Shown here one piece after another: positions 3,515 through 30,959 of a stretch of 34,004 nucleotides of DNA; position 1 is the stretch's first letter; every line of letters starts with the position of its first letter. The DNA is taken from contig VYDB01000041.1 of NCBI GenBank assembly GCA_009843635.1, positions 1-34,004 on the forward strand, in the 5' to 3' direction. Both the position numbers and the translations under genes were made by a program. Source of the stretch: Gammaproteobacteria bacterium. GTDB taxonomy: Bacteria; Pseudomonadota; Gammaproteobacteria; Pseudomonadales; Azotimanducaceae. The notes beneath the pieces are model-generated. The model was not told the DNA's origin. It saw only the letters and a program-made list of their open reading frames with translations, and did not search any database.

Positions 3515-3645
3515 TGGCGGTCTCCTCAACGTGCTCTCACCCGAGCGGAATTCAAAGGCGTTTCGTCACCCTACGGGCATTAGCCTAAGCGTCCGCCCAA
3601 TGAAGTCGTAGGCCGATATTGGACAAGACTCGCTGTTGCAGAAAA

Positions 3646-3677
3646 GGACATGGTACAACTAGAATGTCTTGTGTCAA
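3646..3677. promoter_or_regulatory. Candidate shared operator, site E (crotonase/MFS divergent region)
   Basis: GGACATGGTACAACT ... TGTCTTGTGTCAA. The right arm reads TTGACACAAGACA on the minus strand, nearly identical to the right arm of site D. The left arm GGACATGG is weaker and the spacing about 2 bp shorter than in sites A and B. It lies 24 bp upstream of the crotonase ATG, between divergent genes, so it could control both. Confidence 0.45.
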
Positions 3678-3699
3678 ACTGCATTCTCGAGGAGACCCC

Positions 3700-4542
3700 A
3701 TGGAATACTCAGAAATCATCGTTGACCGCCCCAGAGAGCGCGTCCAACGCATTACGCTCAACAATCCGGAAAAACGCAATCCAATAACGAATGAAATGCG
3801 CACGGAGATATTTCATGCTCTGGAAGCCGCAGATCTCGACGACTCTATTCGGGTGACCGTCATTCGTGGTGCCGGCAAGTGCTTCTCGTCAGGCTACAAC
3901 CTCAAAGCTGGCGTACAAGGTGCCAATGAACAGAACCAGCCGTTTTACACTGCGGGGGGCCTGGGGAACTGGGCGAGGCATCTTGTTGAAGGCGGTTTTA
4001 AGATGTGGGACATGGCTAAACCCATCATCGCCCAGGTACACGGCTACTGCATCGCGGGCGCTACCGAACTGGCCTTGGCCTGTGATCTTGTGTATGTCGC
4101 CGATGATGCGACCATTGGCTATCCCATAGTCCGCAACGGGACCCCACCAAACGTCCAGTTTTACCCATGGCTGATGGGGATGCGAGACGCCATGGAGATG
4201 ATGCTGACGGGCGACTCGATATCAGGTGCGGAAGCAGCCCAAACCCAGTTTGCCAACCGTGCCTATCCTGCGGACGATCTTGAAGACGCGGTTTTGAAAT
4301 TGGCCGAACGGGTGGCGAAGGTCCCATCTGACGTCCAGCAATTCAACAAACGCGCAGTACACGCGCAGATGGAGGAGATGGGTATTCGATCTGGCCTTCG
4401 CAAGGGTACGGAACTTCATACTTTGGCTCGGTTTACCGAGACTTGCGTGGCCATGCAGGAGGCGGTGCGCGCGGATTTTGGCGGCGCACTCGCCAAACGC
4501 GATGCGGCTTTTGGTGACTACGAAAAAAAATCGAAAGACTGA
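3700..4542 (+). CDS. Enoyl-CoA hydratase/isomerase (crotonase) family protein
   Basis: Crotonase-fold protein of 280 aa acting on a CoA thioester in the cytoplasm. Start ATG 3700 follows GAGGAG by 5 nt; the frame extends upstream only through the putative operator. The oxyanion-hole region is GAGKCFSSGYNLKAG, and HGYCIAGATELALACD contains Glu123, matching Glu144 of rat mitochondrial hydratase. Exactly 20 residues on, where hydratase has its second catalytic acid Glu164, this protein has Ile143 in IGYPIVRNGTPP. A classical syn-hydratase mechanism is therefore doubtful; isomerase, hydrolase or another crotonase reaction is possible. It is followed by the CoA-transferase at 4599 and is clearly paralogous to the minus-strand gene at 9295-10131. 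Confidence 0.88.
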   Translation: MEYSEIIVDRPRERVQRITLNNPEKRNPITNEMRTEIFHALEAADLDDSIRVTVIRGAGKCFSSGYNLKAGVQGANEQNQPFYTAGGLGNWARHLVEGGFKMWDMAKPIIAQVHGYCIAGATELALACDLVYVADDATIGYPIVRNGTPPNVQFYPWLMGMRDAMEMMLTGDSISGAEAAQTQFANRAYPADDLEDAVLKLAERVAKVPSDVQQFNKRAVHAQMEEMGIRSGLRKGTELHTLARFTETCVAMQEAVRADFGGALAKRDAAFGDYEKKSKD

Positions 4543-5836: not shown

Positions 5837-7030
5837 TCAAAGACCCAGAACTCGAGACGCGATGATGTTTTTCTGAACCTCCGTAGTCCCTGATGCGATC
5901 GTCATGGCACGATCTGAGAAGTATTGAGAGACAGCAATTGCAGTATTGGCAGTCGGCTCACCGATGAGCTTATGCAACGAACCCTGTTCCATTAGTCGCG
6001 GTTGCTGTGGTACAGCGTAGACCCCCATCATTTCCACCGCGAGTTCAGACGCACGCTGTCGTAACACACTGCCATGAATCTTGCTCACTGAAGCCAATGC
6101 CGACGCCGCTCCCTTGTCCCGCTTCATCAGCTCCAAGGTTTTCTGTTCCATGGCATCGAGGCTTGCAAGTTCGACTTCAATGCTGGCCAGCTTCGCTCGA
6201 AGCGCAGGGGCCTGTATTGGCGACTGGGGACTTGATGCATGCTGATTCACGAAATCTCGGATTCTCTCCAGGTAGTCGTGCACATAGACCGCGTAGCTGT
6301 ATGCCCGCTCACCCACGAGCAAGAATTTGGCCACAGTCCAACCCTCGTTTTCTCTACCGAGCAGAGCAGACCCTGGCACTCTGACGTCCGTGAAAAACAC
6401 CTGGTTAAAATCATGCTCTCCACCAAATGTGAGAATTGGACGAACTTCAATGCCCGGCAAATCCAGGTCGAACATGAAAAACGAGATACCCGCCTGAGGC
6501 TTGCCCTCATTGCTGGTGCGCACCAAGCAGAAGATCTTATTGCACTCATGTGCGTAAGTGGTCCAGATTTTCGTGCCGTTGACAACGTAGTCTTCGCCAA
6601 CTCGCACCGCCCGGCACTTCAATGACGCCAGATCAGATCCAGCGCCTGGCTCGGAGTACCCCTGTGCCCACCAGTCGTTCCCGCGACGGATACGTGGCAG
6701 AACAGCTCCTTTCTGTTCATCGGTACCGAACTCAATAACAACCGGCCCGACCATGTCCACACCCTGCACCGCCATTCGCGGGGCATGTGCCAGCGCTAGT
6801 TCCCGCTTGAAGATCACTAACTGCTCGGTACTCCAGCCGGTCCCACCGTGTTCGACCGGCCATCCTGGGACCGACCAACCCTGATCGTCGAGGATACCTG
6901 TCCACTCCTCCGCGATCACGCGCGGGCAATCGTATCCGGTAAACGCCTCACCAAAGTGGCGAAGTTCAGGCGTCAGTTTGTCACTAAGGAAATCACGAAT
7001 CTCTTCGGTGAATTCCCTCAAACTACTCAT
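5837..7030 (-). CDS. Acyl-CoA dehydrogenase, catalytic-type subunit
   Basis: FAD-dependent acyl-CoA dehydrogenase of 397 aa. FAD-site sequence WWAQGYSEPGAGSDLASLKCRA is at about 120-141, VNGTKIWTTYA follows, and the C-terminus ends TTEVQKNIIASRVLGL. The MCAD-type glutamate before that final GTTEVQ is a serine, but Glu241 in VGERAYSYA matches the alternative catalytic position used by isovaleryl-CoA dehydrogenase. It lacks the RxQFG segment typical of one subunit in steroid-type heteromeric ACADs, so it may need a partner. Its ATG overlaps the stop of an upstream 26-codon frame as ATGA, and its own ribosome site is weak, so translation is probably coupled. Confidence 0.87.
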   Translation of the reverse strand: MSSLREFTEEIRDFLSDKLTPELRHFGEAFTGYDCPRVIAEEWTGILDDQGWSVPGWPVEHGGTGWSTEQLVIFKRELALAHAPRMAVQGVDMVGPVVIEFGTDEQKGAVLPRIRRGNDWWAQGYSEPGAGSDLASLKCRAVRVGEDYVVNGTKIWTTYAHECNKIFCLVRTSNEGKPQAGISFFMFDLDLPGIEVRPILTFGGEHDFNQVFFTDVRVPGSALLGRENEGWTVAKFLLVGERAYSYAVYVHDYLERIRDFVNQHASSPQSPIQAPALRAKLASIEVELASLDAMEQKTLELMKRDKGAASALASVSKIHGSVLRQRASELAVEMMGVYAVPQQPRLMEQGSLHKLIGEPTANTAIAVSQYFSDRAMTIASGTTEVQKNIIASRVLGL

Positions 7031-7107
7031 GGGGGAAGCTTCTGCTTGAGAAACTGGCGCACTTCGACGCGAAACTCCCCGGCTTCTGCTGGGAAATCTA
7101 GGTCCAT
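7027..7107 (-). pseudogene. 26-codon relic of an acyl-CoA dehydrogenase N-terminus
   Basis: A short frame starting at ATG 7107, with GGGAGA about 8 nt upstream, encodes MDLDFPAEAGEFRVEVRQFL and six more residues, then stops at TGA overlapping the next ATG. The peptide matches the first residues of the two other ACADs here (MNFDLPESAERFRSDLRKFL at 19520 and MNFEYPAEAEAFRNELRAFL at 26455). It is not simply the shifted N-terminus of the downstream ACAD, which has its own helix of that kind (REFTEEIRDFL). The simplest reading is the remnant of a second ACAD left by a deletion. It may now act as a translated leader. Confidence 0.6.
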
Positions 7108-7173
7108 TACCCTATCTCCCTAATCCAAAAACGCCCAAACGTTCAGTACGTATCGGTAGACTATCAGCTCAAA

Positions 7174-7206
7174 TGACATAAAATATGCTTTCTGTACTTT
7201 ATGTCA
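7174..7206. promoter_or_regulatory. Candidate shared operator, site A (best palindrome)
   Basis: Perfect 9-bp arms TGACATAAA and TTTATGTCA flank a 15-bp centre, giving a 33-bp inverted repeat centred at 7190. The centre has TATGCTTTCTGTA, closely matching TATGCTATTTGTA in site B, which has the same 33-bp span. It lies between divergent genes, 67 bp from the ACAD-leader ATG (-) and 74 bp from the GTG of the iron alcohol dehydrogenase (+). The arrangement suits a TetR-family dimer. Confidence 0.6.
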
Positions 7207-7279
7207 TACAGAGAATACTATTTCCGCTAAGCAAATTGCCAGACCGGTGAATTGGAATGAAACCGGAGGAGATTGACAA

Positions 7280-8473
7280 GTGACCAAACCCAAAAAGTTA
7301 GGCTGGGGCTTTTTAACCGTGATCAAATTGGGACCTGGGTGTCGCTCGTTAGTGCCGCAAACTTTCGCAGACCAGGGCTGTCAACGTGTGGCACTCATAA
7401 CCGACAAAGGGTTGATCGAAGCAGGTGTTGTCGAAAAGGTGCGCGAGGCTTTCGAAGGCCAGGACGTGCAGATAGCTGGCACGTTTGACAACGTTCGCCA
7501 GGACAATGACACCAGAGACATCAGTGAATGCGCTCAATGGTACCGCGAGGTCGGTGCGGACGGTCTACTGGCTGTTGGAGGCGGGAGTGTTCTCGACACA
7601 GCCAAGTGCGTCAAGGTCTTGCTGGGAATGAAGGTGGACGACATCACTGACCTGATGACGGGCCACATCACCTTTTACAAGCGGCCCAATGCTCAGCCGC
7701 TTGGAATCCCACACATCTCCCTCCCCACCACGGCCGGCACTGGCGCCGACGTTTCTGCGAGTTCGGCTCTGTTTGATGCGAAGTCCAAGAAGAAACTCAT
7801 ATTTTTTCATGCCTATATGGGCTCGGACTTCGCCTTCCTGGATCCCGAGCTGACTGTTACGCTGCCACCCAAACTCACCGCCGAACCGGCGTTCGATTCC
7901 TTGAGCCACAGCATCGAGTCATTCTTTTCCACCAGAGCCAACAGCATGGCAGACGCATTTGCCCTCCGCTCTGCCCGCCTGGTTTACCAAAACCTGCCCG
8001 TTGCGGTAGAAAACGGCAACGATATCGACGCCCGAGCGGAGCTGCAGACCGCCAGCGCCATGTCGGTTATGGCGTCTGTGTCCGCGCTCGGCTGCAACCC
8101 CATACACAATTTCGCCGACGCGATTGGCCCCTTGTTCGGAGTTTCCCATGGGCTGGCCAATGCGGTGTACTTGCCGATCGTCATGAAGAACTTGCCATCC
8201 CATTATCGACCTAGGATAAAGGAATTCGCTCAGGGCCTGGACATCCCTATCGACTCCAACGACGACGATCAACAGATTTTGGATAGGGTGATTTCCGAGT
8301 TCATCTCGTTGCAGGAAAAGTGCGGCATCCCGGCCAGACTCGCCATTGAGATTGAAAGGGACCGGCTCGACGGCTTGAAGGCGGCAGTCAAAGAGGACCC
8401 GGCTGCCGCCGGATTCCCGCTTCCGGATGACGTGATCACCGCATGCTTGGAGGAGAGCATGACGATTAAGTAG
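7280..8473 (+). CDS. Iron-containing alcohol dehydrogenase family protein
   Basis: Group III (iron-activated) alcohol dehydrogenase of 397 aa, oxidising an alcohol or reducing an aldehyde or ketone with NAD(P). GGGSVLDTAK (100-109) is the nucleotide-binding signature and LPTTAGTGAD follows. The metal ligands are visible as Asp206, His210, His276 and His290, with the spacing of FucO-type enzymes. The start is GTG at 7280, supported by GGAGGAG at 7265-7271. The SDR at 8476 starts immediately after its stop, so they share a transcript. A maleylacetate reductase-like activity is an alternative within the same superfamily. Confidence 0.87.
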   Translation: MTKPKKLGWGFLTVIKLGPGCRSLVPQTFADQGCQRVALITDKGLIEAGVVEKVREAFEGQDVQIAGTFDNVRQDNDTRDISECAQWYREVGADGLLAVGGGSVLDTAKCVKVLLGMKVDDITDLMTGHITFYKRPNAQPLGIPHISLPTTAGTGADVSASSALFDAKSKKKLIFFHAYMGSDFAFLDPELTVTLPPKLTAEPAFDSLSHSIESFFSTRANSMADAFALRSARLVYQNLPVAVENGNDIDARAELQTASAMSVMASVSALGCNPIHNFADAIGPLFGVSHGLANAVYLPIVMKNLPSHYRPRIKEFAQGLDIPIDSNDDDQQILDRVISEFISLQEKCGIPARLAIEIERDRLDGLKAAVKEDPAAAGFPLPDDVITACLEESMTIK

Positions 8474-9294: not shown

Positions 9295-10131
9295 TTACTT
9301 CTTCGCAGTGTAATCGCCGAAGGCCGCGTCGCGCTCGGTAAAGCTAGCTTTGACATTCTCGCGGAGCGACGCGATTTGCGCCTGGCAGCTATCAGTGTGT
9401 CTGGCCAGCGAATTCATTTCCGCACCCATGCGGATGCCGGTTCGAATGCCCATGATTTCCATCTGCTTGTGCAATGCGCGTTTGTTCATCTGTTGCACGT
9501 CGATGGGCACCTTGGCAACCCGCTCCGCCATGCGCAGCACGGCATCGTCGAGCTCATCGGCCGGGAAAGCGCGGTTGGCGAGCCCACCCTCGACAGCTTC
9601 CACGCCAGTAATGGAGTCGCCAGTCAGCATCATCTCCGAGGCGCGCCGCATACCTAAAAGCCAGGGGAAAATTTGCAGGTTTGGCGGGGTCCCATTGCGA
9701 ACGATCGGATAACCAATCATCGCGTCTTCGGCGACATACACGAGATCACTGCCGGCGGCCAGTTCGCCCGCACCGGCGATGCAGAAGCCGTGCACCTGGC
9801 AAATAATCGGTTTGCACAGGTCCCACATTCGGATGCAGCTTTCAACAAGGTGCCTTGGCCAATTGCCGAGCCCACCCGCCGTGTGAAACGGCTGGCCCTG
9901 CGTATTAAGATTGGTTGCCCCTTCATAAAGGTCGTAGCCCGTCGAGAATCCCGGGCCAGCACCGCGAATGATAGTGACGCGAACCGTATCGTCGACATCT
10001 GCGGTCTCCAGCGCATGAAACAATTCCCGACGCATTTCATTGGTGAGCGCATTCCGCTTTTCAGGGTAGTTGAGCGTTATGCGTTGAACGTACTCCAGCG
10101 GACGATCGACGATGATTTTTGCGTATTCCAT
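9295..10131 (-). CDS. Enoyl-CoA hydratase/isomerase family protein, paralogue of the 3700 gene
   Basis: Crotonase-fold protein of 278 aa, aligning with the gene at 3700-4542 almost without gaps (for example TAGGLGNW, RHLVE, IGYPIVRNGTPPN). Glu123 in IAGAGELAAGSD corresponds to the first hydratase glutamate. The second is again Ile143, so the two copies share the non-classical active site. ATG 10131 follows GGGAGG by about 4 nt; the longer TTG frame at 10143 runs through that site. It is divergent from the SDR at 10242, with candidate operator B between. It probably arose by duplication within the locus and may act on a related intermediate. Confidence 0.87.
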   Translation of the reverse strand: MEYAKIIVDRPLEYVQRITLNYPEKRNALTNEMRRELFHALETADVDDTVRVTIIRGAGPGFSTGYDLYEGATNLNTQGQPFHTAGGLGNWPRHLVESCIRMWDLCKPIICQVHGFCIAGAGELAAGSDLVYVAEDAMIGYPIVRNGTPPNLQIFPWLLGMRRASEMMLTGDSITGVEAVEGGLANRAFPADELDDAVLRMAERVAKVPIDVQQMNKRALHKQMEIMGIRTGIRMGAEMNSLARHTDSCQAQIASLRENVKASFTERDAAFGDYTAKK

Positions 10132-10163
10132 TGGACCTCCCAAGCTTAATGGCTTATCAGTTA

Positions 10164-10241: not shown

Positions 10242-11189
10242 ATGACTGACCGACTCGAGGGCAAAAGCATCGCGATCACCGGGGCCGGACGGGGTATCGG
10301 CCGCTCGCTCGCACTCAAGTTTGCCGAGGAAGGCGCGCGGATCGTGGTGTCCGACCTCGGCGGCGATGGCGAAGGCGGCGGAACAGCCTCGCAGGCCCCC
10401 GCCGATGAGGTCGTCGCTGAAATCCACGAGCTCGGCGGCGAAGCGGTCGCGGTTTACGACGACGTTGCGACGATCGCGGGCGGGGAGCGCGTGGTGCAGG
10501 CAGCAGTCGAGAGCTTCGGCCGCCTCGACGGACTCGTGTGCAACGCAGCGATCATGGCCCCGGCGAAGCCGCTTTGGGAACTGTCCGAAGACGAGTGGGA
10601 TACCGTGGTCCGGGTAAACCTCAGGGGGCAATTCTGCCCGGTGCGTGCCGCCATCCCGGTGATGCGCAAGCAAGGCACTGGGCGGCTTATCTACTTCTCA
10701 TCGTCGGCCGCCATCGCAGCCGACCATGGCGCTGTTAGCGCCTTCGATACCAGTCTATACGGTGCCTCCAAAGCGGGTGTGCTCGGCCTGATGTGGGGGA
10801 CCGCGACCCAATTCTCCGAGTACGGGATCACTTCGAACGCCATCATGCCTGGTGCGGCCACGCGGCTCATCGATATACGGCTTCCCGATACGGAACAGGC
10901 CGCCGCATTCCGCAGTGACAAAGCCCTCGGAACCTGGCGCGACCCGAAGCATGTTGCACCCATTGTTGCCTACCTCTTGAGCGACGCAGGCGCACGCGTG
11001 AACGGCCAACTCTTCGGAGTGATGGGCGGTCGGCTGGCGCTCTATCGCCCTGTCGAGCCGAATAACGTGATCAACGCCAAAGAGGGCGTCGGCTTCTCGA
11101 TGGATGAGCTGTTCCGCCGGTTCCCCGCAGAATTCGGGGTGGATCTCAACTACGAGCCGGCAACGTTTCCGCCGCCCGTTGGCAACTAG
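10242..11189 (+). CDS. Short-chain dehydrogenase, MFE-2/HSD17B4-like
   Basis: SDR of 315 aa. TGAGRGIGRSLALKFAEEGA (13-32) binds the nucleotide. The following VVSDLGGDGEGGG and ADEVVAEIHELGGEAVA resemble the 3-hydroxyacyl-CoA dehydrogenase domain of peroxisomal multifunctional enzyme 2 (HSD17B4). Catalytic residues are Ser153-155, Tyr173 and Lys177 (YGASK). A C-terminal extension of about 50 residues after the Rossmann domain (from about NNVINAKEGVGF) is also seen in that subgroup. Oxidation of a 3-hydroxyacyl-CoA is plausible, but the substrate is not established. The gene is visibly richer in GC than those on either side and is followed 11 nt later by the fusion gene at 11201. Confidence 0.86.
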   Translation: MTDRLEGKSIAITGAGRGIGRSLALKFAEEGARIVVSDLGGDGEGGGTASQAPADEVVAEIHELGGEAVAVYDDVATIAGGERVVQAAVESFGRLDGLVCNAAIMAPAKPLWELSEDEWDTVVRVNLRGQFCPVRAAIPVMRKQGTGRLIYFSSSAAIAADHGAVSAFDTSLYGASKAGVLGLMWGTATQFSEYGITSNAIMPGAATRLIDIRLPDTEQAAAFRSDKALGTWRDPKHVAPIVAYLLSDAGARVNGQLFGVMGGRLALYRPVEPNNVINAKEGVGFSMDELFRRFPAEFGVDLNYEPATFPPPVGN

Positions 11190-11200
11190 GAGTATCATTG

Positions 11201-12487
11201 ATGGCCGACAATGATCGAGAATCGCGTTCAATCGAAATCTGGGAAGGAATTCGCGAACGCCTGCGAGCCGACGTCGGCGAGGTGGTGTATGGCCCCTGGC
11301 TGGAACCCCTGACCTTTGTGGAGTCGCGCGGCGGCGTCGTGCGCCTCGCGCTCCCGTCACGATTCAGGCGCGAGTGGGTGGCGGACACTTACGGGGCGCA
11401 CATCCTTGCCCTGTGGCGCGAGGAAGACGACGACATCACCGAGGTGGAGATTGTCGTTCGGCCGCAGTCCCGCCCGACGCCCAAGGACGGCAGACAGAAG
11501 GACAATCGTGAGCCTACGGAAGCCAAAGACGCCCGTGTGGTGGACCGCGCACAAGAGGACCGCCGTGGGACTGCGGCGATCAAAAGTGCATGTGTGACGG
11601 ATCGCGGAACCAAGCAACCAAACCTGAATCCGGTGCGTGAGCAACTAGGCAAGGTCGGCGTGTGGAGCCGCTCGCCGTACTTCTATGAAGCGGAAAAGGC
11701 GACGAGCTTGGCTGTCGCGGCAGAGGAACTCGGCTACCGAGCGTTGTGGATCCCCGGGTTCGATGGTGGCCACATCTTCGAGCGATGCGAGCTGGCGCTA
11801 AAAGCCTCTACGCGGCTGACGATCGCCACGGGTGTTGTCAACATCTGGCGCCACGACCCCGCCGAGGTCGCCCAGACCGTGAACAAGCTGCGGGCCGCCA
11901 GTGGTGGCCGGTTCCTGCTTGGGATCGGTGGGAGCCACAAATTTCTGATCGGTGACGCCTACGACGAGATCTCTCCATTGGCAAAGATGGGCAGCTACCT
12001 CGATGAGCTCGACGCCGCAGGCCTGCCGGCGGAGGATCGCCTGCTGGGCGCGCTTGGTCCAAGGATGCTGGCGCTCTGCGCAGAACGAACTGCCGGAACC
12101 CATCCCTGCTTCATTCCCCCGGAGTTTACCGGCGCCGCGCGGGAGGTGCTCGGTGACGGGCCGTTGCTCGTGCCCGAAGTGACGGTGATCCTTGAAAGCG
12201 ACCCCGGCGTGGCTCGAGCACTGGCCCGAAAGTTTGCCGGTCTGTATTTCAAGGGTCCTAACTACGCCAACATGCTACGCCGGTTCGGCTTCACCGACGA
12301 CGACTTCCACGGGGAAGGCAGCGATCGTCTCATCGACGCGGTCGTCGCCTGGGGCGACCCGGAAACCATCGCGGCCCGGGTACGCGCCCACCTCGACGCG
12401 GGCGCCGACCATGTGGCCATCCAGTCCCGGGGGCCAAAGCCGGAGGCTGATGTCTGGCGAGAGCTCGCTCCCCGGGTTCTGGGCTGA
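11201..12487 (+). CDS. Fusion of DnaA N-terminal domain (domain I) and LLM-class oxidoreductase
   Basis: 428-aa protein with two unrelated parts. Residues about 11-88 match DnaA domain I: IWEGIRERLRADVGEVVYGP, WLEPLTF, then LALPSRFRREWVADTYGAHI and WREEDDDITEVEIVV, in the style of alphaproteobacterial DnaA. In DnaA this domain mediates self-association and helicase and cofactor contacts; no AAA+ or DNA-binding domain follows here. Residues 89-147 are a charged, probably disordered linker. Residues 148-428 form a luciferase-like (LLM) barrel (KVGVWSRSPYFYEAEKATSL, ITIATGVVNIW-like strand, FLLGIGGSHKFLIG), resembling F420- or FMN-dependent oxidoreductases. ATG 11201 has AGGAG 8 nt upstream. The frame is open throughout, and no good internal start was seen before the barrel. 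GC-rich like the preceding SDR. Confidence 0.82.
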   Translation: MADNDRESRSIEIWEGIRERLRADVGEVVYGPWLEPLTFVESRGGVVRLALPSRFRREWVADTYGAHILALWREEDDDITEVEIVVRPQSRPTPKDGRQKDNREPTEAKDARVVDRAQEDRRGTAAIKSACVTDRGTKQPNLNPVREQLGKVGVWSRSPYFYEAEKATSLAVAAEELGYRALWIPGFDGGHIFERCELALKASTRLTIATGVVNIWRHDPAEVAQTVNKLRAASGGRFLLGIGGSHKFLIGDAYDEISPLAKMGSYLDELDAAGLPAEDRLLGALGPRMLALCAERTAGTHPCFIPPEFTGAAREVLGDGPLLVPEVTVILESDPGVARALARKFAGLYFKGPNYANMLRRFGFTDDDFHGEGSDRLIDAVVAWGDPETIAARVRAHLDAGADHVAIQSRGPKPEADVWRELAPRVLG

Positions 12488-12573: not shown

Positions 12574-13776
12574 ATGTCATCAAATTCACCTTTTCCGTTG
12601 TTTGATTGCGACAACCACATTTATGAGCCGCCAGAGGCCTTCCTACGTCATTTGCCGGACAAGCACAAAAACGTAATGACCTATGTTGAAGTAGATGGTC
12701 GTACCAAGATTGCTTTTAACGGTGAAATTACTGAATACATACCGAATCCGACATTTGAAGTTGTGGCGGCTCCAGGCTGTCATGCTGAGTTCTATCGTGG
12801 AAACAATCCTGATGGAAAGTCATTCAGAGAATTCAACGTGGTTGAAAAAGGCAAAGCTGAGTATCAGTACAAGACACCTGAGCGCTTAAAGATGCTCGAT
12901 GAGCACGGCATAGTTGGAGCGCTCGTGTTCCCATCGCTTGCGAACGTCATCGAGGGTCATATGGATCATGACCCGGACTTTTGCCACGCCGCAATCCATT
13001 CGTTGAATCTATGGATAAGGGAGGAATGGGGATTCGGTGACGATGGCAGGTTCTACGTTACCCCTGTAATTACTTTCATGGACGCAGCCAAAGCGCTGGA
13101 AGAGACGCAGTGGATTATCGAGAATGGCTCCAAAGTCGTTCTGATTCGCCCCGCCCCGGTTGCTGGCGTTGACGGTTACCGCTCAATGGCATCACCTGAG
13201 TTTGATGCGATATGGAAACTACTCGAAGAAAACAAAATCTTCGTTACGTTTCATACCTCAGACAACGGATACAATGACGTCTACCAAAGGCACAAAACTG
13301 AGGCTGCTGCTGATGGTGAAGAATATCTCCCGTTCGATCGGACATCTACGCTAGAGCAGGTAATGGACGTTAACCATCTTGCGTGCCAGCATCATCTCGC
13401 TTCGTTGATCTGTCACGGTCTGTTTGATCGCTTCCCTAAGCTGAGTATTTCCTATGTTGAAACTGGCACTTACTGGGTTTACCCGCTATGGGATAGGTTT
13501 GACCTTGTTTACAGACAGATGCCTCAGGCCTTCGGTCGTCATCCCCATGAAATTATGCGTAGCAACGTTTTCTACCACCCGTTCTATGAGGAAAATGTCT
13601 ACCGTTTGGTTGAAATGGTAGGCGTGGATCAAGTCATGTTCGGCAGCGATTGGCCTCATCCCGAAGGTTTGGCGCAGCCATCAGACTGGGAAGACGAAAT
13701 TTCTAAACTGAGCGAAAAGGATAGAGCAAAAATCATGGGAGGTAATATCATGAGAGTCATGGGCTTGGTTGCTTGA
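12574..13776 (+). CDS. ACMSD-like amidohydrolase family protein
   Basis: Amidohydrolase_2 (PF04909-type) TIM-barrel metal enzyme of 400 aa; members hydrolyse or decarboxylate carboxylic substrates. The first metal region is FDCDNHIYEPPE (Asp13, His15), with His227 in VTFHTSDNG and Asp359 in VMFGSDWPHPEG. ATG 12574 is preceded by GAGAG; a TTG in frame at 12541 overlaps the putative operator. The gene is noticeably richer in A and T than its neighbours, especially the GC-rich pair just upstream, which suggests a separate origin. It is a distant relative of the gene at 21944. The substrate is unknown; the neighbouring LLM fusion and ligases suggest ring or ester processing, which is only inference. 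Confidence 0.86.
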   Translation: MSSNSPFPLFDCDNHIYEPPEAFLRHLPDKHKNVMTYVEVDGRTKIAFNGEITEYIPNPTFEVVAAPGCHAEFYRGNNPDGKSFREFNVVEKGKAEYQYKTPERLKMLDEHGIVGALVFPSLANVIEGHMDHDPDFCHAAIHSLNLWIREEWGFGDDGRFYVTPVITFMDAAKALEETQWIIENGSKVVLIRPAPVAGVDGYRSMASPEFDAIWKLLEENKIFVTFHTSDNGYNDVYQRHKTEAAADGEEYLPFDRTSTLEQVMDVNHLACQHHLASLICHGLFDRFPKLSISYVETGTYWVYPLWDRFDLVYRQMPQAFGRHPHEIMRSNVFYHPFYEENVYRLVEMVGVDQVMFGSDWPHPEGLAQPSDWEDEISKLSEKDRAKIMGGNIMRVMGLVA

Positions 13777-13794: not shown

Positions 13795-15483
13795 TCAATC
13801 TGCACACTCCTGCGCTGCCTGGTCACGAAGCATCTTTTTGTCGATCTTACCGACTGGCGTTAAGGGGATGGCGTCTACCAGGTGAATGACCTTCGGCACC
13901 TTGTAAGCTGCCATTTCAGCACGGCAGAACTCACGAATGTCTGTTCGAACTTGGTCCGGGTCCAACTGTTTCGCCTCCGGGGTCAGCTCCACATAAAGAT
14001 TGACGATTTCACTACCCGGCCGTTTCACATCCGGGCTGCCAATCAACGCGGATAGCCCAATGAACTCAAGCCCAGCTAGCTTGTCTTCAACTTCCACCGA
14101 GAACACCTTGAAACCACTGACGATGATCATGTCCTTGGCCCGGTCTTTGAGATAAACGTAGCCCTCTTTATCCATGACGCCTACATCACCCGAATGCATC
14201 CAGGTTCTGCCGTGCCATTCGCGCAGAGAATTGGTGGTTTCATCAGGTCGATTCAGATAGCCTTTCATCAACGAGGGGCTCGAAATGATGATCTCCCCCG
14301 CTTCCCCATAGGGCATTTCCCGCGTACCCGTTTCAACGTCGACAATACGCACGTCGACGGAAGGAATAGGTATGCCCACCGATTCCGGCTTACAACGTTG
14401 CGGCGGGTTAACGATGACTGTCGGTCCTCCTTCCGTCATGCCATAGCCGTCTGAAAGCACCGTGCCCTCCAGCATGCCTTCGATTCGCTTTCGATCCTCT
14501 CCGGTGATGGGTGCCGCTCCGCACATAGCGAATTTCAGATGAGAAAAATCGATCTCTGCACTTAAGGGATGATCGGCAATCATCTGGTATAGCGTCGGCA
14601 CACCCGACAGTCGTGTTGGCGGGCACTCGATCATTTGCTGACAGTAGTGGTCAATGTCACGCGCATCGGGAATCAGCACCATCCGTGCCCCGTACCTGAA
14701 GGCCCAGAGAAATGTGCCACAACCACCGATATGGGTTGGTGGTAGCGCATTGAATGCCGTTTCTGTCCCCACTTCCCATGGACGGAAAAGATGGGCGATC
14801 ACTATGTTGTACATGATGCCGCGCAGCGTCAGCATGGCACCCTTGGGCTTGCCTGTCGTGCCGCCGGTGTACTGGATCAGGCAAATGTGATCAGGCGGCA
14901 GGTCAACCTGGTTAAACTCCGGGCTCGCATCGGCGGTGAGTTCGAGGTAGGCCTTGCATGTGACTGATTCCAGTATCGGCAATTCCAAGCCCACAGGTTG
15001 CCTGAGATCATCAGCACCTGTGACGATAACCGCCGTCACACATTGCGGAAGACTGTCCAGGGACTCAAGGGTGGATTTCGCCAAACTATCGAGAGAAATC
15101 AGTACCTTGATCCCAGCGTCTTCGAGCTGGTTCGCGACCTCTGCGCGTGCGAGCGGCGGTGACACGCCACAAGCCACGGCGCCGAGCTTGGAAAGCGCAA
15201 CCAAGGCAATGCCATACTGCGGAACATTGGGCAATTGCAGACCCACCACATCACCCAAACCCACGCCCAGTGTCACCAGACCATTGGCCAGGCGATTGGA
15301 TAGTTCATTCAACTCCCGGTAGCTGATTTCCCGCTCGAAGTACCGCAACGCACTGTTATCGGCAATGGACTCTGCATAATCCTCTACAAACGTCCCGAGC
15401 GGCCGGTTGTCAAATGCCGGAGGCTCTACGCCCAGTTCCTTGTGAATTGTCAGCCATGGGCCGGGCTTGAGTTGATCACTCAT
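13795..15483 (-). CDS. Acyl-CoA synthetase (AMP-dependent ligase), copy 1
   Basis: ANL-superfamily acyl-CoA ligase of 562 aa, activating a carboxylic acid with ATP and CoA. The P-loop is YTGGTTGKPKG (205-215). YGMTEGGP (347-354), the GDVGVMDKEGYVYLKDRAKD hinge region and catalytic Lys546 in PVGKIDKKML are all present. RBS CGGAGG is 6 nt before the ATG. It is the last gene of a minus-strand operon and closely paralogous to 17645-19324, sharing even the GATGTTCGGAGGAA leader. The two differ strongly at about residues 225-270, in the expected acyl-pocket area (LPPTHIGGCGTFLW here), so their substrates probably differ. Confidence 0.9.
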   Translation of the reverse strand: MSDQLKPGPWLTIHKELGVEPPAFDNRPLGTFVEDYAESIADNSALRYFEREISYRELNELSNRLANGLVTLGVGLGDVVGLQLPNVPQYGIALVALSKLGAVACGVSPPLARAEVANQLEDAGIKVLISLDSLAKSTLESLDSLPQCVTAVIVTGADDLRQPVGLELPILESVTCKAYLELTADASPEFNQVDLPPDHICLIQYTGGTTGKPKGAMLTLRGIMYNIVIAHLFRPWEVGTETAFNALPPTHIGGCGTFLWAFRYGARMVLIPDARDIDHYCQQMIECPPTRLSGVPTLYQMIADHPLSAEIDFSHLKFAMCGAAPITGEDRKRIEGMLEGTVLSDGYGMTEGGPTVIVNPPQRCKPESVGIPIPSVDVRIVDVETGTREMPYGEAGEIIISSPSLMKGYLNRPDETTNSLREWHGRTWMHSGDVGVMDKEGYVYLKDRAKDMIIVSGFKVFSVEVEDKLAGLEFIGLSALIGSPDVKRPGSEIVNLYVELTPEAKQLDPDQVRTDIREFCRAEMAAYKVPKVIHLVDAIPLTPVGKIDKKMLRDQAAQECAD

Positions 15484-16673: not shown

Positions 16674-17648
16674 CTAGAACACGGCCAGCGGATTGAGGGG
16701 AGCGCCCGTCCCGCCCTCAACGCGCAATGGCGCAGCAACAAACAAAAACTCCCATCTCTCATGCTTCAACGCCTCACTGGCCAGGGCATCGAGATCAAGA
16801 CTGTCCAGCACCGGCATGCCCAACCCGGCCAAGACCAGTTCATGGAGGGGAGCCTGCATGCCTTCAATTCCGGAGGGAATCACATCATTGCCCCCATCAG
16901 CGCCGAGAACAGCGACATCTCTTCGCTTCAGCCACTTGGCAACAGATGCATGCAAACCGGCAGCCCCATCGGTTAAGTGGCTGGGCCCAAGCTGCCGGGT
17001 GCGCTCCCACCGGCCGGTTCGGACCAGCAGCGCATCACCGGTGCCAATGGTGATGCCGGTTTTCGCCTCCCAAGCCTCAAGATCAGCCGCTGCAATGGCA
17101 TCGCCCAGCTCAAGAAAATCCACGCCACGAAACCAGGCCATGTCCACCAGCACGCCACGGGTGAAGATGCCATCCTTCATATTGTGGATGCCCAGTTTCC
17201 CTGAGCCGCTCAATCCGATGAAGTGAGCAGAGTAGCCGTTGTACAGTTTGCCTTGGTGGATGACGTGAGCCAATGCATCAATATGCGAATGTGTTGCGCC
17301 GTGATACTCAACTGCATATCTATCGGATGCAAAAGACTGGCTGCCAACGCGAGCCACAGAAGATGTGTGTTCAAAGGGATGCGGGTTGTAATCGCTCTTG
17401 ACCTTGTTGAGATCGAGCGACAGGGAAACGGTGATTCCGTGCCTCACCAAACCGGCAGCCTTTATCTTAACTTGCGGTGTAATGAGATTAAGGGTGCCAA
17501 GCTCATCATCCTTTCCCCAACGCCCCCAGTTGGATACCTCGTTGAACCATTGTTCAAATTGTTGCCTGCCAATCGTCTTGGGCCCAGGTTCTGCTGAGAT
17601 CGCATATAACGGAATGCAAGCTAGCGCAGCAATGATGACCTTAATCAT
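16674..17648 (-). CDS. Cyclase family protein (kynurenine-formamidase-like), probably secreted
   Basis: Putative metal-dependent hydrolase of the cyclase family (PF04199), 324 aa. YHGATHSHIDALAHV contains His116, His120, His122, Asp124 and His128, fitting the family HxxTHxDxxxH metal motif. Residues 1-19 (MIKVIIAALACIPLYAISA) look like a signal peptide with cleavage before EPG, so the enzyme may act in the periplasm although its operon partners are cytoplasmic. Its ATG overlaps the ligase copy 2 stop as ATGA. Such enzymes hydrolyse amides, esters or cyclic ketones; the substrate here is unknown. The cysteine at position 11 does not sit in a convincing lipobox. Confidence 0.86.
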   Translation of the reverse strand: MIKVIIAALACIPLYAISAEPGPKTIGRQQFEQWFNEVSNWGRWGKDDELGTLNLITPQVKIKAAGLVRHGITVSLSLDLNKVKSDYNPHPFEHTSSVARVGSQSFASDRYAVEYHGATHSHIDALAHVIHQGKLYNGYSAHFIGLSGSGKLGIHNMKDGIFTRGVLVDMAWFRGVDFLELGDAIAAADLEAWEAKTGITIGTGDALLVRTGRWERTRQLGPSHLTDGAAGLHASVAKWLKRRDVAVLGADGGNDVIPSGIEGMQAPLHELVLAGLGMPVLDSLDLDALASEALKHERWEFLFVAAPLRVEGGTGAPLNPLAVF

Positions 17649-28511: not shown

Positions 28512-30959
28512 TCACTCGATCACCTGATCCGCCATCAGGTCCGCAACCTGCTCATCGTCGAGGCCAAGCGACCCCGTCAATATCTCAAAACTGTCCCCGC
28601 CGATCAGCGGTGCCGGTGCGCGAGGTCCGTGATCATATCCGCTTACCCGGTACTGATGGCCACTGTAAGGCACCAAACCCATCTCGCCGTGCTCAAGGAA
28701 CCGGTGAAATGCACGATGCTCGTACTGAGGATCCTCGAGTAGATCGCTGCTTCGCTGAACATGCCCAGCGGGGATTCCCGCACCAGTTAACTGCGCCATG
28801 GCATTGGTCGGCGTGTGCTCCCGCGTCCAGTCCGCCAGGTTTTCATCAATCAGGTCATGTGCCTCGATACGTCCGGCAGCTGTGTTGTATTTCTCCGAAC
28901 GCGCCCAACCAGGGTCACCCAATACGCCTCGCAAGGCACGCCACTGCGCATCGTTTTCGACCGCAATCGCAATCCATTCATCTTCACCCACGCAGGGATA
29001 AGCGCCCTGTGGGGCAGCATCCCGCGAGCGATTGCCGCTACGCGTGAACCTTCGGTCTGTTGCCTGTACTTCAAGGATCTCAGGCGCCAGAAAGTGAAGC
29101 GCGGCTTCCATCTGACTGAGGTCAATGTACTGACCGTCACCGGTTCGCCTGTGATGATCAATGGCAGCAAGCAAGGTCGCGGTAAGGAATCGCGGTGCGA
29201 TGGTATCCGTGTAGGCGTTCCAGGGACCACAGGATGCTCGGTCCGGCCAGCCGGTGAGGCGGTAAAATCCCGCCAGGGCCGCGGCGTGGTAACCGTATCC
29301 GGCCATATGCGCGAGCGGCCCGGTCTGCCCTGCCAAGCAGGTGCTGACAAAAATCACGCCCGGATTCGCTTTTTTTGCATCCTCGTAACCGATTCCCAGC
29401 CGATTGACGGTGCCCGGCGTAAAGCTCTCAATGACGACGTCCGCCCACTCCAGGACTTTTTTTGTCACTTCGCCAGCACGCTCGTGACGGAGGTCAAGCT
29501 TCAAGCTGCGCTTGGATGTATTGAATTCCCCGAAAAACTGAGAGCGGTTCCAACCATCGATGTTGTCCTTGTACGGACCTGCCGTACGTAGCGCATCTGC
29601 CCGCGTCGTCGACTCAATCCGGATAACATCCGCGCCGTGGTCTGCCAAGCATTTGCCAGTCATGGGGCCCACACCCACCCAACTGAAGTCCGCCACCTTC
29701 AGCCCTTCGAAGGGCAGAGCGGGAGTTGGTGTGGGCCTGCTCTGGCGAGTTGGTTGCCTCGGTTGATTGGCTAGCTCCTCTAGAACTTCAGCGGTGTGTT
29801 CGCCAATGGACGCTAGGGTACGCCTAACGAGGCGATGCCTCAGACCCCCGCTCGAACACTTCGCAAAGGCACCGGGCGCCTGGCATGAAACGCCGTTCGG
29901 CAATTTCACTTCCTGGAAGTAGTCCCGGGCCAACAGTTGCGGGAACTTCACCAGTTCCTCAATCGACATGATCGGTGCCAGAGTCACCCCAAGTTCCAGG
30001 CCTCTCGCAAAGATGGTTTCCTTTGTCTGCCCTGCCAGGAAAGCATCAACCTTGTCGTTAAGCTCATCGATATCAATCGCAAAGCCATCACCTCGAAACA
30101 GACGGAAGTCGTAGTCCTCCCATTGCTCCCTGGCGAGCCAAGCATCGTCAATGGCTCCCTCCTCTTTCATCCAAGGAACCATTTTCTCGAGCTGTTGCCA
30201 GATCACTGGTCCGGCTACATGGCCGTCTTTTGCCGGATGTACGATCGGGATCCTGCGACGCCCGATCTGCGCGAGGGAGCCATCACGCACATAGTCATAA
30301 CCTTGGATTGCTGCGGCAGTCATGGCTTGCAGCATGGTCCAGGTCATCGCCGCTTGGGCGGAAACATCAACGAATACACCCTCGCCCGTGGTCCGCATGC
30401 GCGCATGCCCGACAAGTGCCGCAACTGCGGCTTCGGCGCCCGCATGGCGCCATACCTGGGGTGCGCTGACCCTTACCGGCGGCCTGTCTGAGTCCCCTTG
30501 CAGTGACATCTGGCCACTCATGGCCGCAACGCTCAGATCGGCGGCAGGCAAATCCGCATGAGGTCCGTCGTTCCCATAGGGCGTTACCCTCACTTGGACG
30601 AGCTGAGGATTTGCTTCGCAAAGCACTTCATGGTTCAACCCCGCCTCGTCCAGCAAGGCCGGCGGGCCGGAATCCAACACGAAGTCCGAACCGCGAACCA
30701 GGTCGAGGAACGTCGCCCGCCCCCCATCGGTCGCAAGATCCAGTTGGATGGATCGCTTGTTCCGGTTGTACGCCGCAAAACTCAGGCTGCACGGTCCGTC
30801 AGGTCCATCATCAGCGAAGGGACCGACCCGGCGGGCTTCACTGCCGCCGGGTGGCTCGATCCTGATGACATCGGCACCCAAGTCAGCCAGCACCATGCCA
30901 CCCAACTGACCTCGAACGTCAGTGAGATCAAGCGCTCTATAGGCTTTGAGCAAGCTCAC
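28512..30959 (-). CDS. Double-length type III CoA-transferase (two fused CaiB/BaiF domains)
   Basis: 815-aa protein with two tandem family III domains joined by a proline-rich linker at about 398-416. Domain 1 has the fold markers LADLGADVIRIEPPGG and AAYNRNKRSIQLDL, but at the catalytic-aspartate position (24 residues before the G of TGEGVFVDVS) it has Trp170. Domain 2 keeps Asp585 in NAYTDTIAPRF at the same distance from GDGQYIDLS. Domain 2 is therefore probably catalytic and domain 1 structural, mimicking the second subunit of the usual interlocked dimer. The start is GTG 30959, chosen because the following LKAYRALDLTDVRG is the family N-terminus; there is no good ribosome site, so coupling to the upstream gene is likely. 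Confidence 0.87.
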   Translation of the reverse strand: MSLLKAYRALDLTDVRGQLGGMVLADLGADVIRIEPPGGSEARRVGPFADDGPDGPCSLSFAAYNRNKRSIQLDLATDGGRATFLDLVRGSDFVLDSGPPALLDEAGLNHEVLCEANPQLVQVRVTPYGNDGPHADLPAADLSVAAMSGQMSLQGDSDRPPVRVSAPQVWRHAGAEAAVAALVGHARMRTTGEGVFVDVSAQAAMTWTMLQAMTAAAIQGYDYVRDGSLAQIGRRRIPIVHPAKDGHVAGPVIWQQLEKMVPWMKEEGAIDDAWLAREQWEDYDFRLFRGDGFAIDIDELNDKVDAFLAGQTKETIFARGLELGVTLAPIMSIEELVKFPQLLARDYFQEVKLPNGVSCQAPGAFAKCSSGGLRHRLVRRTLASIGEHTAEVLEELANQPRQPTRQSRPTPTPALPFEGLKVADFSWVGVGPMTGKCLADHGADVIRIESTTRADALRTAGPYKDNIDGWNRSQFFGEFNTSKRSLKLDLRHERAGEVTKKVLEWADVVIESFTPGTVNRLGIGYEDAKKANPGVIFVSTCLAGQTGPLAHMAGYGYHAAALAGFYRLTGWPDRASCGPWNAYTDTIAPRFLTATLLAAIDHHRRTGDGQYIDLSQMEAALHFLAPEILEVQATDRRFTRSGNRSRDAAPQGAYPCVGEDEWIAIAVENDAQWRALRGVLGDPGWARSEKYNTAAGRIEAHDLIDENLADWTREHTPTNAMAQLTGAGIPAGHVQRSSDLLEDPQYEHRAFHRFLEHGEMGLVPYSGHQYRVSGYDHGPRAPAPLIGGDSFEILTGSLGLDDEQVADLMADQVIE

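Follow-up and report, generated by a model that had tools for sequence, protein, structure and literature searches.

The window analysed here, the whole stretch of 34,004 nucleotides, contains a gene whose product carries domain I of DnaA in front of an LLM class oxidoreductase (Table 1). Only 11 bp separate the stop codon of the upstream short-chain dehydrogenase (SDR; TAG, 11187-11189) from the ATG of this fusion gene.

Table 1. Features of the fusion gene and its immediate neighbours in the window.
Feature	Position	Strand	Remarks
Short-chain dehydrogenase	10242..11189	+	Pfam adh_short_C2; directly upstream, same order in L037
Ribosome-site-like TAGGAG	11187..11192	+	Overlaps upstream SDR stop; 8 nt ahead of ATG 11201
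Fusion gene	11201..12487	+	428 codons plus stop; ATG 11201 to stop at 12487, uninterrupted frame
Residues 1-97, DnaA domain I and start of domain II, probably alphaproteobacterial type	11201..11491	+	Pfam DnaA_N; L222 alignment
Residues 98-147, variable charged linker	11492..11641	+	49% orthologue identity over residues 89-147, omega 0.87
Residues 148-428, F420-dependent LLM class oxidoreductase (TIGR03620)	11642..12484	+	NCBIfam; Foldseek
Amidohydrolase (Amidohydro_2)	12574..13776	+	Downstream neighbour, kept in L037
AMP-forming acyl-CoA ligase	13795..15483	-	Neighbour kept in L037

The product is matched by DnaA_N (PF11638) over residues 12-74 with 59.6 bits (E 2.5e-16; Pfam cut-off 24.6), by Bac_luciferase with 67.6 bits (Pfam), and by TIGR03620 over residues 149-424 with 311 bits (NCBIfam; cut-off 219.8); taken in isolation, residues 1-92 reach DnaA_N at 63.6 bits (E 1.4e-17). 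Both family scores lie far beyond chance. DnaA domain I has a KH-like fold, and LLM enzymes are usually dimers. With phmmer, the solved structure that best matches residues 1-92 is 2e0g, domain I of E. coli DnaA (E 0.0046); the predicted models have low confidence in this part, with a pLDDT of 46 (two-row alignment) and of about 35 (full-length model). Foldseek with the full model returned F420-dependent oxidoreductases on top and other luciferase-like enzymes lower, among the best 50 of 1604 matches; 63 columns are identical across the fusion, its orthologue and seven unfused relatives. Pfam found no AAA+ ATPase or DNA-binding domain of DnaA in the fusion, only DnaA_N and Bac_luciferase, and the DnaA model TIGR00362 scores 37.5 bits, under its cut-off of 343.9. 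Between the two domains, 24 of the 59 residues from 89 to 147 are charged (D, E, K, R).

A full-length orthologue lies at 6001-7287 of locus L037 (contig G058:C50 of the MAG Pseudomonadales bacterium r_calh23_24), in a genome of another genus of the same family as the window genome; Pseudomonadales belong to Gammaproteobacteria. The orthologue is 83% identical over residues 1-427 of the fusion, and scores 59.9 bits to DnaA_N and 68.1 bits to Bac_luciferase (Pfam). Window and L037 have in common the order of two SDRs, an enoyl-CoA hydratase, an amidohydrolase and an acyl-CoA ligase around the fusion. Nine relatives were found in the named genome contigs; the other eight are unfused, 39-53% identical to the fusion, and their matches start at residues 121-143. 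To an assembly chimera, a dnaA fragment joined artificially to an oxidoreductase gene, we give practically no credence: it is refuted because a contig from another genus carries the same fusion with the same neighbours, unless both assemblies are chimeric at the same codon, and the orthologues have diverged synonymously in all three parts. The preliminary description, which had seen a DnaA N-terminal pattern near residues 11-88 and a luciferase-like barrel at residues 148-428, and had taken the open frame and the charged linker as signs of a real fusion and not a sequencing join, is thus borne out by the separate Pfam match of the N-terminal part and by a second genome with the same arrangement.

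Gene neighbourhood and genomic setting

Around the fusion gene lie CoA ligases, acyl-CoA dehydrogenases, CoA transferases, hydratases, amidohydrolases, PhyH and TetR genes, and 24 of the 25 window proteins scanned have catabolic, transport or regulatory matches (the one at 16674-17648 is without an NCBIfam match). This inventory suggests the breakdown of some CoA-activated substrate. No plasmid or integrative-element setting with replication or transfer genes was found among the 25 proteins. The upstream SDR is 88% identical to its counterpart in G058 and at most 44% identical to proteins of the other family genomes listed, and it has no close relative in the eight other genomes of the genus; the gene cluster is therefore accessory.

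The cofactor of the enzyme can be expected in the host, as far as gene content tells. Contig C14 of the window genome holds an F420 gene set side by side, with NCBIfam scores (cut-offs in brackets) of 1175 (1018) bits for CofGH, 154 (105) for CofC, 292 (257) for CofD, 274 (181) for CofE and 187 (150) for the NADPH-dependent F420 reductase NpdG.

We read the window as an acquired island within this genome. The alternative, that an alphaproteobacterial contig was wrongly binned into this MAG and the fusion arose within one class, is very improbable. It would account for the GC content of the window (56-57.5%, where 16 stretches sampled from the genome have 60-66%), for its mean tetranucleotide correlation (0.41-0.49, against 0.65-0.81) and for the upstream SDR being without close relatives in the genus. 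Both ends of the window, however, tie it to its genome: the first 54 bp are a repeat that recurs with 95-100% identity where many of its other contigs end, and the last 52 bp are identical to bases 2-53 of its contig C14. The orthologue is found in a second MAG from this family, in which the GC of three further sampled stretches is close to that of the orthologue's contig, and the stated contamination of the window MAG is 0.73.

Several minor features of the region were seen. The repeat at positions 1-54 recurs at 84-93% identity in two genomes of the same genus (G007 and G002), and is an interspersed, genus-level element that breaks the assembly. The enoyl-CoA hydratase genes at 3619-4542 and 9295-10143, on opposite strands, are a duplication with 73% DNA identity over about 720 bp. 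At 28512-30959 the window encodes an 815-residue protein of CoA-transferase family III in which two stretches match, so that it is probably a tandem fusion. The downstream amidohydrolase, whole in the window, is split into two frames in L037 (7305-8311).

Origin and distribution of the DnaA domain

The host's own DnaA was considered as the source of the domain and rejected, being 27% identical to it (12.7 bits) and grouping with its own family and class in trees. Because of this low identity, and because own DnaA is the only other place above the DnaA_N cut-off in the window genome, the DnaA part is no copy from a nearby contig, an origin that the preliminary description had named as one to be checked.

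Closer relatives lie outside the class. The best other match to the domain in 369 class genomes reaches 41.1 bits, and the best matches in 398 phylum genomes reach 81.4, 80.6 and 79.9 bits. In the order of genome G1212, matches at E 1e-18 or better occur in 57 of 61 genomes, the strongest reaching 102 bits (residues 2-92); in that of G1074, they occur in 32 of 179 genomes. All 23 loci fetched from these two orders carry the DnaA signature, with the ATPase pattern missing three of them. Apart from these 23, another 91 domain-match loci were read, and 88 are DnaA-like, including L047 and L140, which were recognised by reading the sequence after the motif pattern had missed them, and L104, which is incomplete; the remaining three comprise the fusion (L046) as well as L052 and L162. 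In the plasmid collection, the listed matches nearest to the L131 and L222 DnaAs are those of Paracoccus (59.5% and about 63-67% identity, respectively); the gammaproteobacterial DnaAs listed reach at most 44.4%. From this closeness to Paracoccus, a member of the Alphaproteobacteria, we infer that both orders are of alphaproteobacterial type.

Phylogenetic trees place the domain in the same company. In a tree of 69 rows, which were chosen as best hits and span a short alignment, the fusion pair is nested with 14 rows of the G1212 order at a support of 96/92; the inner forks around the pair have 96/77, 99/87 and 98/84, support for any exact sister drops to 95/31, and the gammaproteobacterial rows stand apart at 100/100. 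A tree of 92 rows that leaves out the later loci likewise groups the pair with the other class and not with own DnaA (97/77). Of the 12 columns that are at least 85% conserved in 53 DnaA domains of alphaproteobacterial type, 10 are kept in both fusions, W14, F55 and W59 among them; the two that deviate are G26, which is D in L037, and T53, which is S in both.

The joint can be followed in the alignment with the L222 DnaA, which runs from M1 to residue 97 with 53 of 97 residues identical and fades afterwards; at its end VVRPQSRPTPK of the fusion stands opposite VVQPPARPTPK. Local alignments to some other such DnaAs extend to residues 112-134 at lower identity. On the L222 alignment, the captured piece is DnaA domain I together with the beginning of domain II. 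The best reading of these comparisons is a fusion across classes, between a dnaA 5' end and a catabolic oxidoreductase gene. The two-domain architecture of the preliminary description stands, but it had missed the origin in another class, the start of the match at the very start of dnaA, and its end early in domain II.

A phage origin was also considered and rejected: only two matches came from the phage collection, both unannotated fecal records named "Bacteriophage sp." with 36-37% identity. A scan of viral contigs yielded no match to the domain, and a DNA search of plasmids with L132 gave no match. One of the two phage-collection records (L161, 2840-4318 of MT838018.1) has a DnaA-like frame with ATPase motif and signature, and is probably bacterial DNA.

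The fusion is rare. Among 206 family genomes the full domain match (195-198 bits) occurs in two, the window genome and G058; 45 of the 206 have some match at E 0.01 or better, all but the pair with at most 32.7 bits. No domain match was seen in the eight other genomes of the genus, nor in one other shown genome of the genus of G058. Within 390 order genomes, a list that does not include G058, residues 1-428 are covered in the window genome alone; the matches of 30 other order genomes at E 1e-40 or better start at residue 91 or later, and no further fusion was found, with at most four candidates scored in the listed genomes. The overlapping samples of 206 family, 369 class and 398 phylum genomes hold no fusion beyond the pair, and the two orders of alphaproteobacterial type (179 and 61 genomes) hold none at E 1e-18 or better. 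In the family, class, phylum and two-order scans, some of the matching places were read in sequence, and score and frame length decided on the others; domains that have diverged strongly would escape the scans.

Constraint on the parts and the possible role of the domain

Selection on the parts was estimated as Nei-Gojobori omega with our own script, from the two orthologues aligned by codon without gaps, one sequence pair only, with bootstrap 95% intervals. Omega is 0.32 (0.16-0.59) for residues 11-88 of the DnaA part, 0.87 (0.46-1.72) for the linker (residues 89-147) and 0.08 (0.05-0.13) for the enzyme (residues 148-428); residues 25-76, a stretch picked post hoc from the alignment, give 0.10. 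On the thin base of this one pair, the DnaA part is constrained, less so than the enzyme, and the linker is nearly free to evolve. The DnaA piece appears to be kept in the fusion by selection, and its constraint may perhaps reflect just a need to fold.

We tentatively suggest, at somewhat less than even confidence, that recombination put a dnaA 5' end in front of an F420-dependent oxidoreductase gene, and that the N-terminal domain now acts as an interaction module, most likely for weak self-association, and not in replication. The recombined piece would be of alphaproteobacterial type and would have supplied the LLM oxidoreductase gene, at its front, with a start codon, domain I and the opening residues of domain II; the joining would have happened inside a catabolic gene island that is now found in two gammaproteobacterial genera of one family. 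On its flexible tether the N-terminal domain would fold and mediate contacts, most likely weak ones between enzyme subunits, and the enzyme would thereby be clustered or stabilised, with no role in replication. In favour of this reading, both domains are constrained and the linker is not, and the N-terminal domain is placed among DnaAs of another class.

What domain I does in DnaA offers a guide. In E. coli it dimerises via a patch with Trp6 and contacts DnaB via Glu21 and Phe46, according to one review (PMC5448010); for Actinomycetes DnaA, another paper puts the affinity of domain I dimers in the micromolar range (PMC13270200). In the structure-match alignment, W14 of the fusion occupies the position of Trp6, F55 that of Phe46 and V29 that of Glu21. 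Against self-association, only Trp6 is identical among the six dimer-patch positions that the review lists for E. coli; Leu5, Gln8, Cys9, Leu10 and Leu33 are replaced by I13, G16, I17, R18 and S42.

A simpler account is that of expression capture, in which a dnaA 5' end replaced the start of the enzyme gene and the domain was kept for its start codon and harmless folding, with no binding role. We consider this nearly as likely. In its favour, similarity to DnaA sets in right at the start codon; most of the listed matches of unfused oxidoreductases start no earlier than residue 134, and all of those listed start at residue 86 or beyond; and the fusion was found in two genomes only. Against it, residues 11-88 are still constrained, and the equivalents of Trp6 and Phe46, partner-contact positions in E. 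coli, are kept in both copies.

That the domain docks onto the replication machinery, binding host DnaA, DnaB or a DiaA-like factor and so tying the enzyme or a redox state that it senses to initiation, is unlikely. Domain I of E. coli has many partners, and the review cited above lists DnaA monomers, DnaB, DiaA, HU, Dps, L2, YfdR and the clamp-Hda complex (PMC5448010); F55 also sits at the Phe46 position. The domain, however, belongs to another class and shares only 27% of its residues with the host DnaA domain, it has Val in place of Glu21, and 24 of the 25 scanned neighbours look catabolic, transport or regulatory. A link to DnaB or DnaA partners, which the preliminary description had put forward, has accordingly become less likely, even with Trp and Phe conserved at the Trp6 and Phe46 positions; its other suggestion, reuse of the domain for oligomerisation or docking, is plausible. 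The fuller version, in which the captured domain binds replication proteins, so that the F420-dependent enzyme is physically tied to initiation and links the cell cycle to catabolism or redox state, is less probable still. We would thus rank self-association or docking first among the roles of the domain, an inert front end as a close second, and replication docking as a distant third.

DnaA domain I is usually studied as a hub of replication, and a part of that system seems to be reused elsewhere here. A copy on a metabolic enzyme, if it is under selection, would show that the domain is a portable interaction module and, freed from DnaA, would let its binding activities be probed apart from the other functions of DnaA. 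The gene further offers a clear-cut example of two bacterial classes contributing to one protein, and its joint can be mapped. If the domain is inert, the case is one for caution in annotation, as such proteins could be labelled DnaA fragments.

DnaA_N domains outside DnaA

The fusion resembles chromosomal DnaA in a sequence of 63 residues (59.6 bits), in the start codon, in the Trp and Phe positions and in the first residues of domain II; in DnaA an AAA+ ATPase and a DNA-binding domain follow, whereas an LLM barrel follows here. TIGR03620 enzymes are matched at full length, and the fusion has about 147 extra N-terminal residues. DnaA_N outside DnaA is already known, in DnaA-like proteins (DALP) of Rickettsia plasmids (PMC4316617) and in genes of Orientia RAGE elements (PMC10732058); these lie on plasmids or integrative elements and the DnaA_N of DALP is C-terminal, in contrast to the N-terminal DnaA_N of the fusion on a metabolic enzyme. 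In the open-licence literature, judged in part by titles and the starts of abstracts, we found no report of DnaA_N on a metabolic enzyme, and from the architectures compared this placement would be the new part.

Two further proteins from our searches score above the DnaA_N cut-off and are not DnaA. One, on a Paracoccus plasmid (WP_127899552.1; L162, 442-1137 of NZ_CP034811.1), has its DnaA_N at the C-terminus, and its helix-turn-helix matches are weak and below the Pfam cut-off. The other comes from the same family as the window genome (L052, 1501-2703; G203:C616) and, like the fusion, has DnaA_N in a non-DnaA protein (41.7 bits); the roughly 340 residues that follow have neither a Pfam match nor the DnaA ATPase motif. 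By eye only, this protein resembles a plasmid replication initiator.
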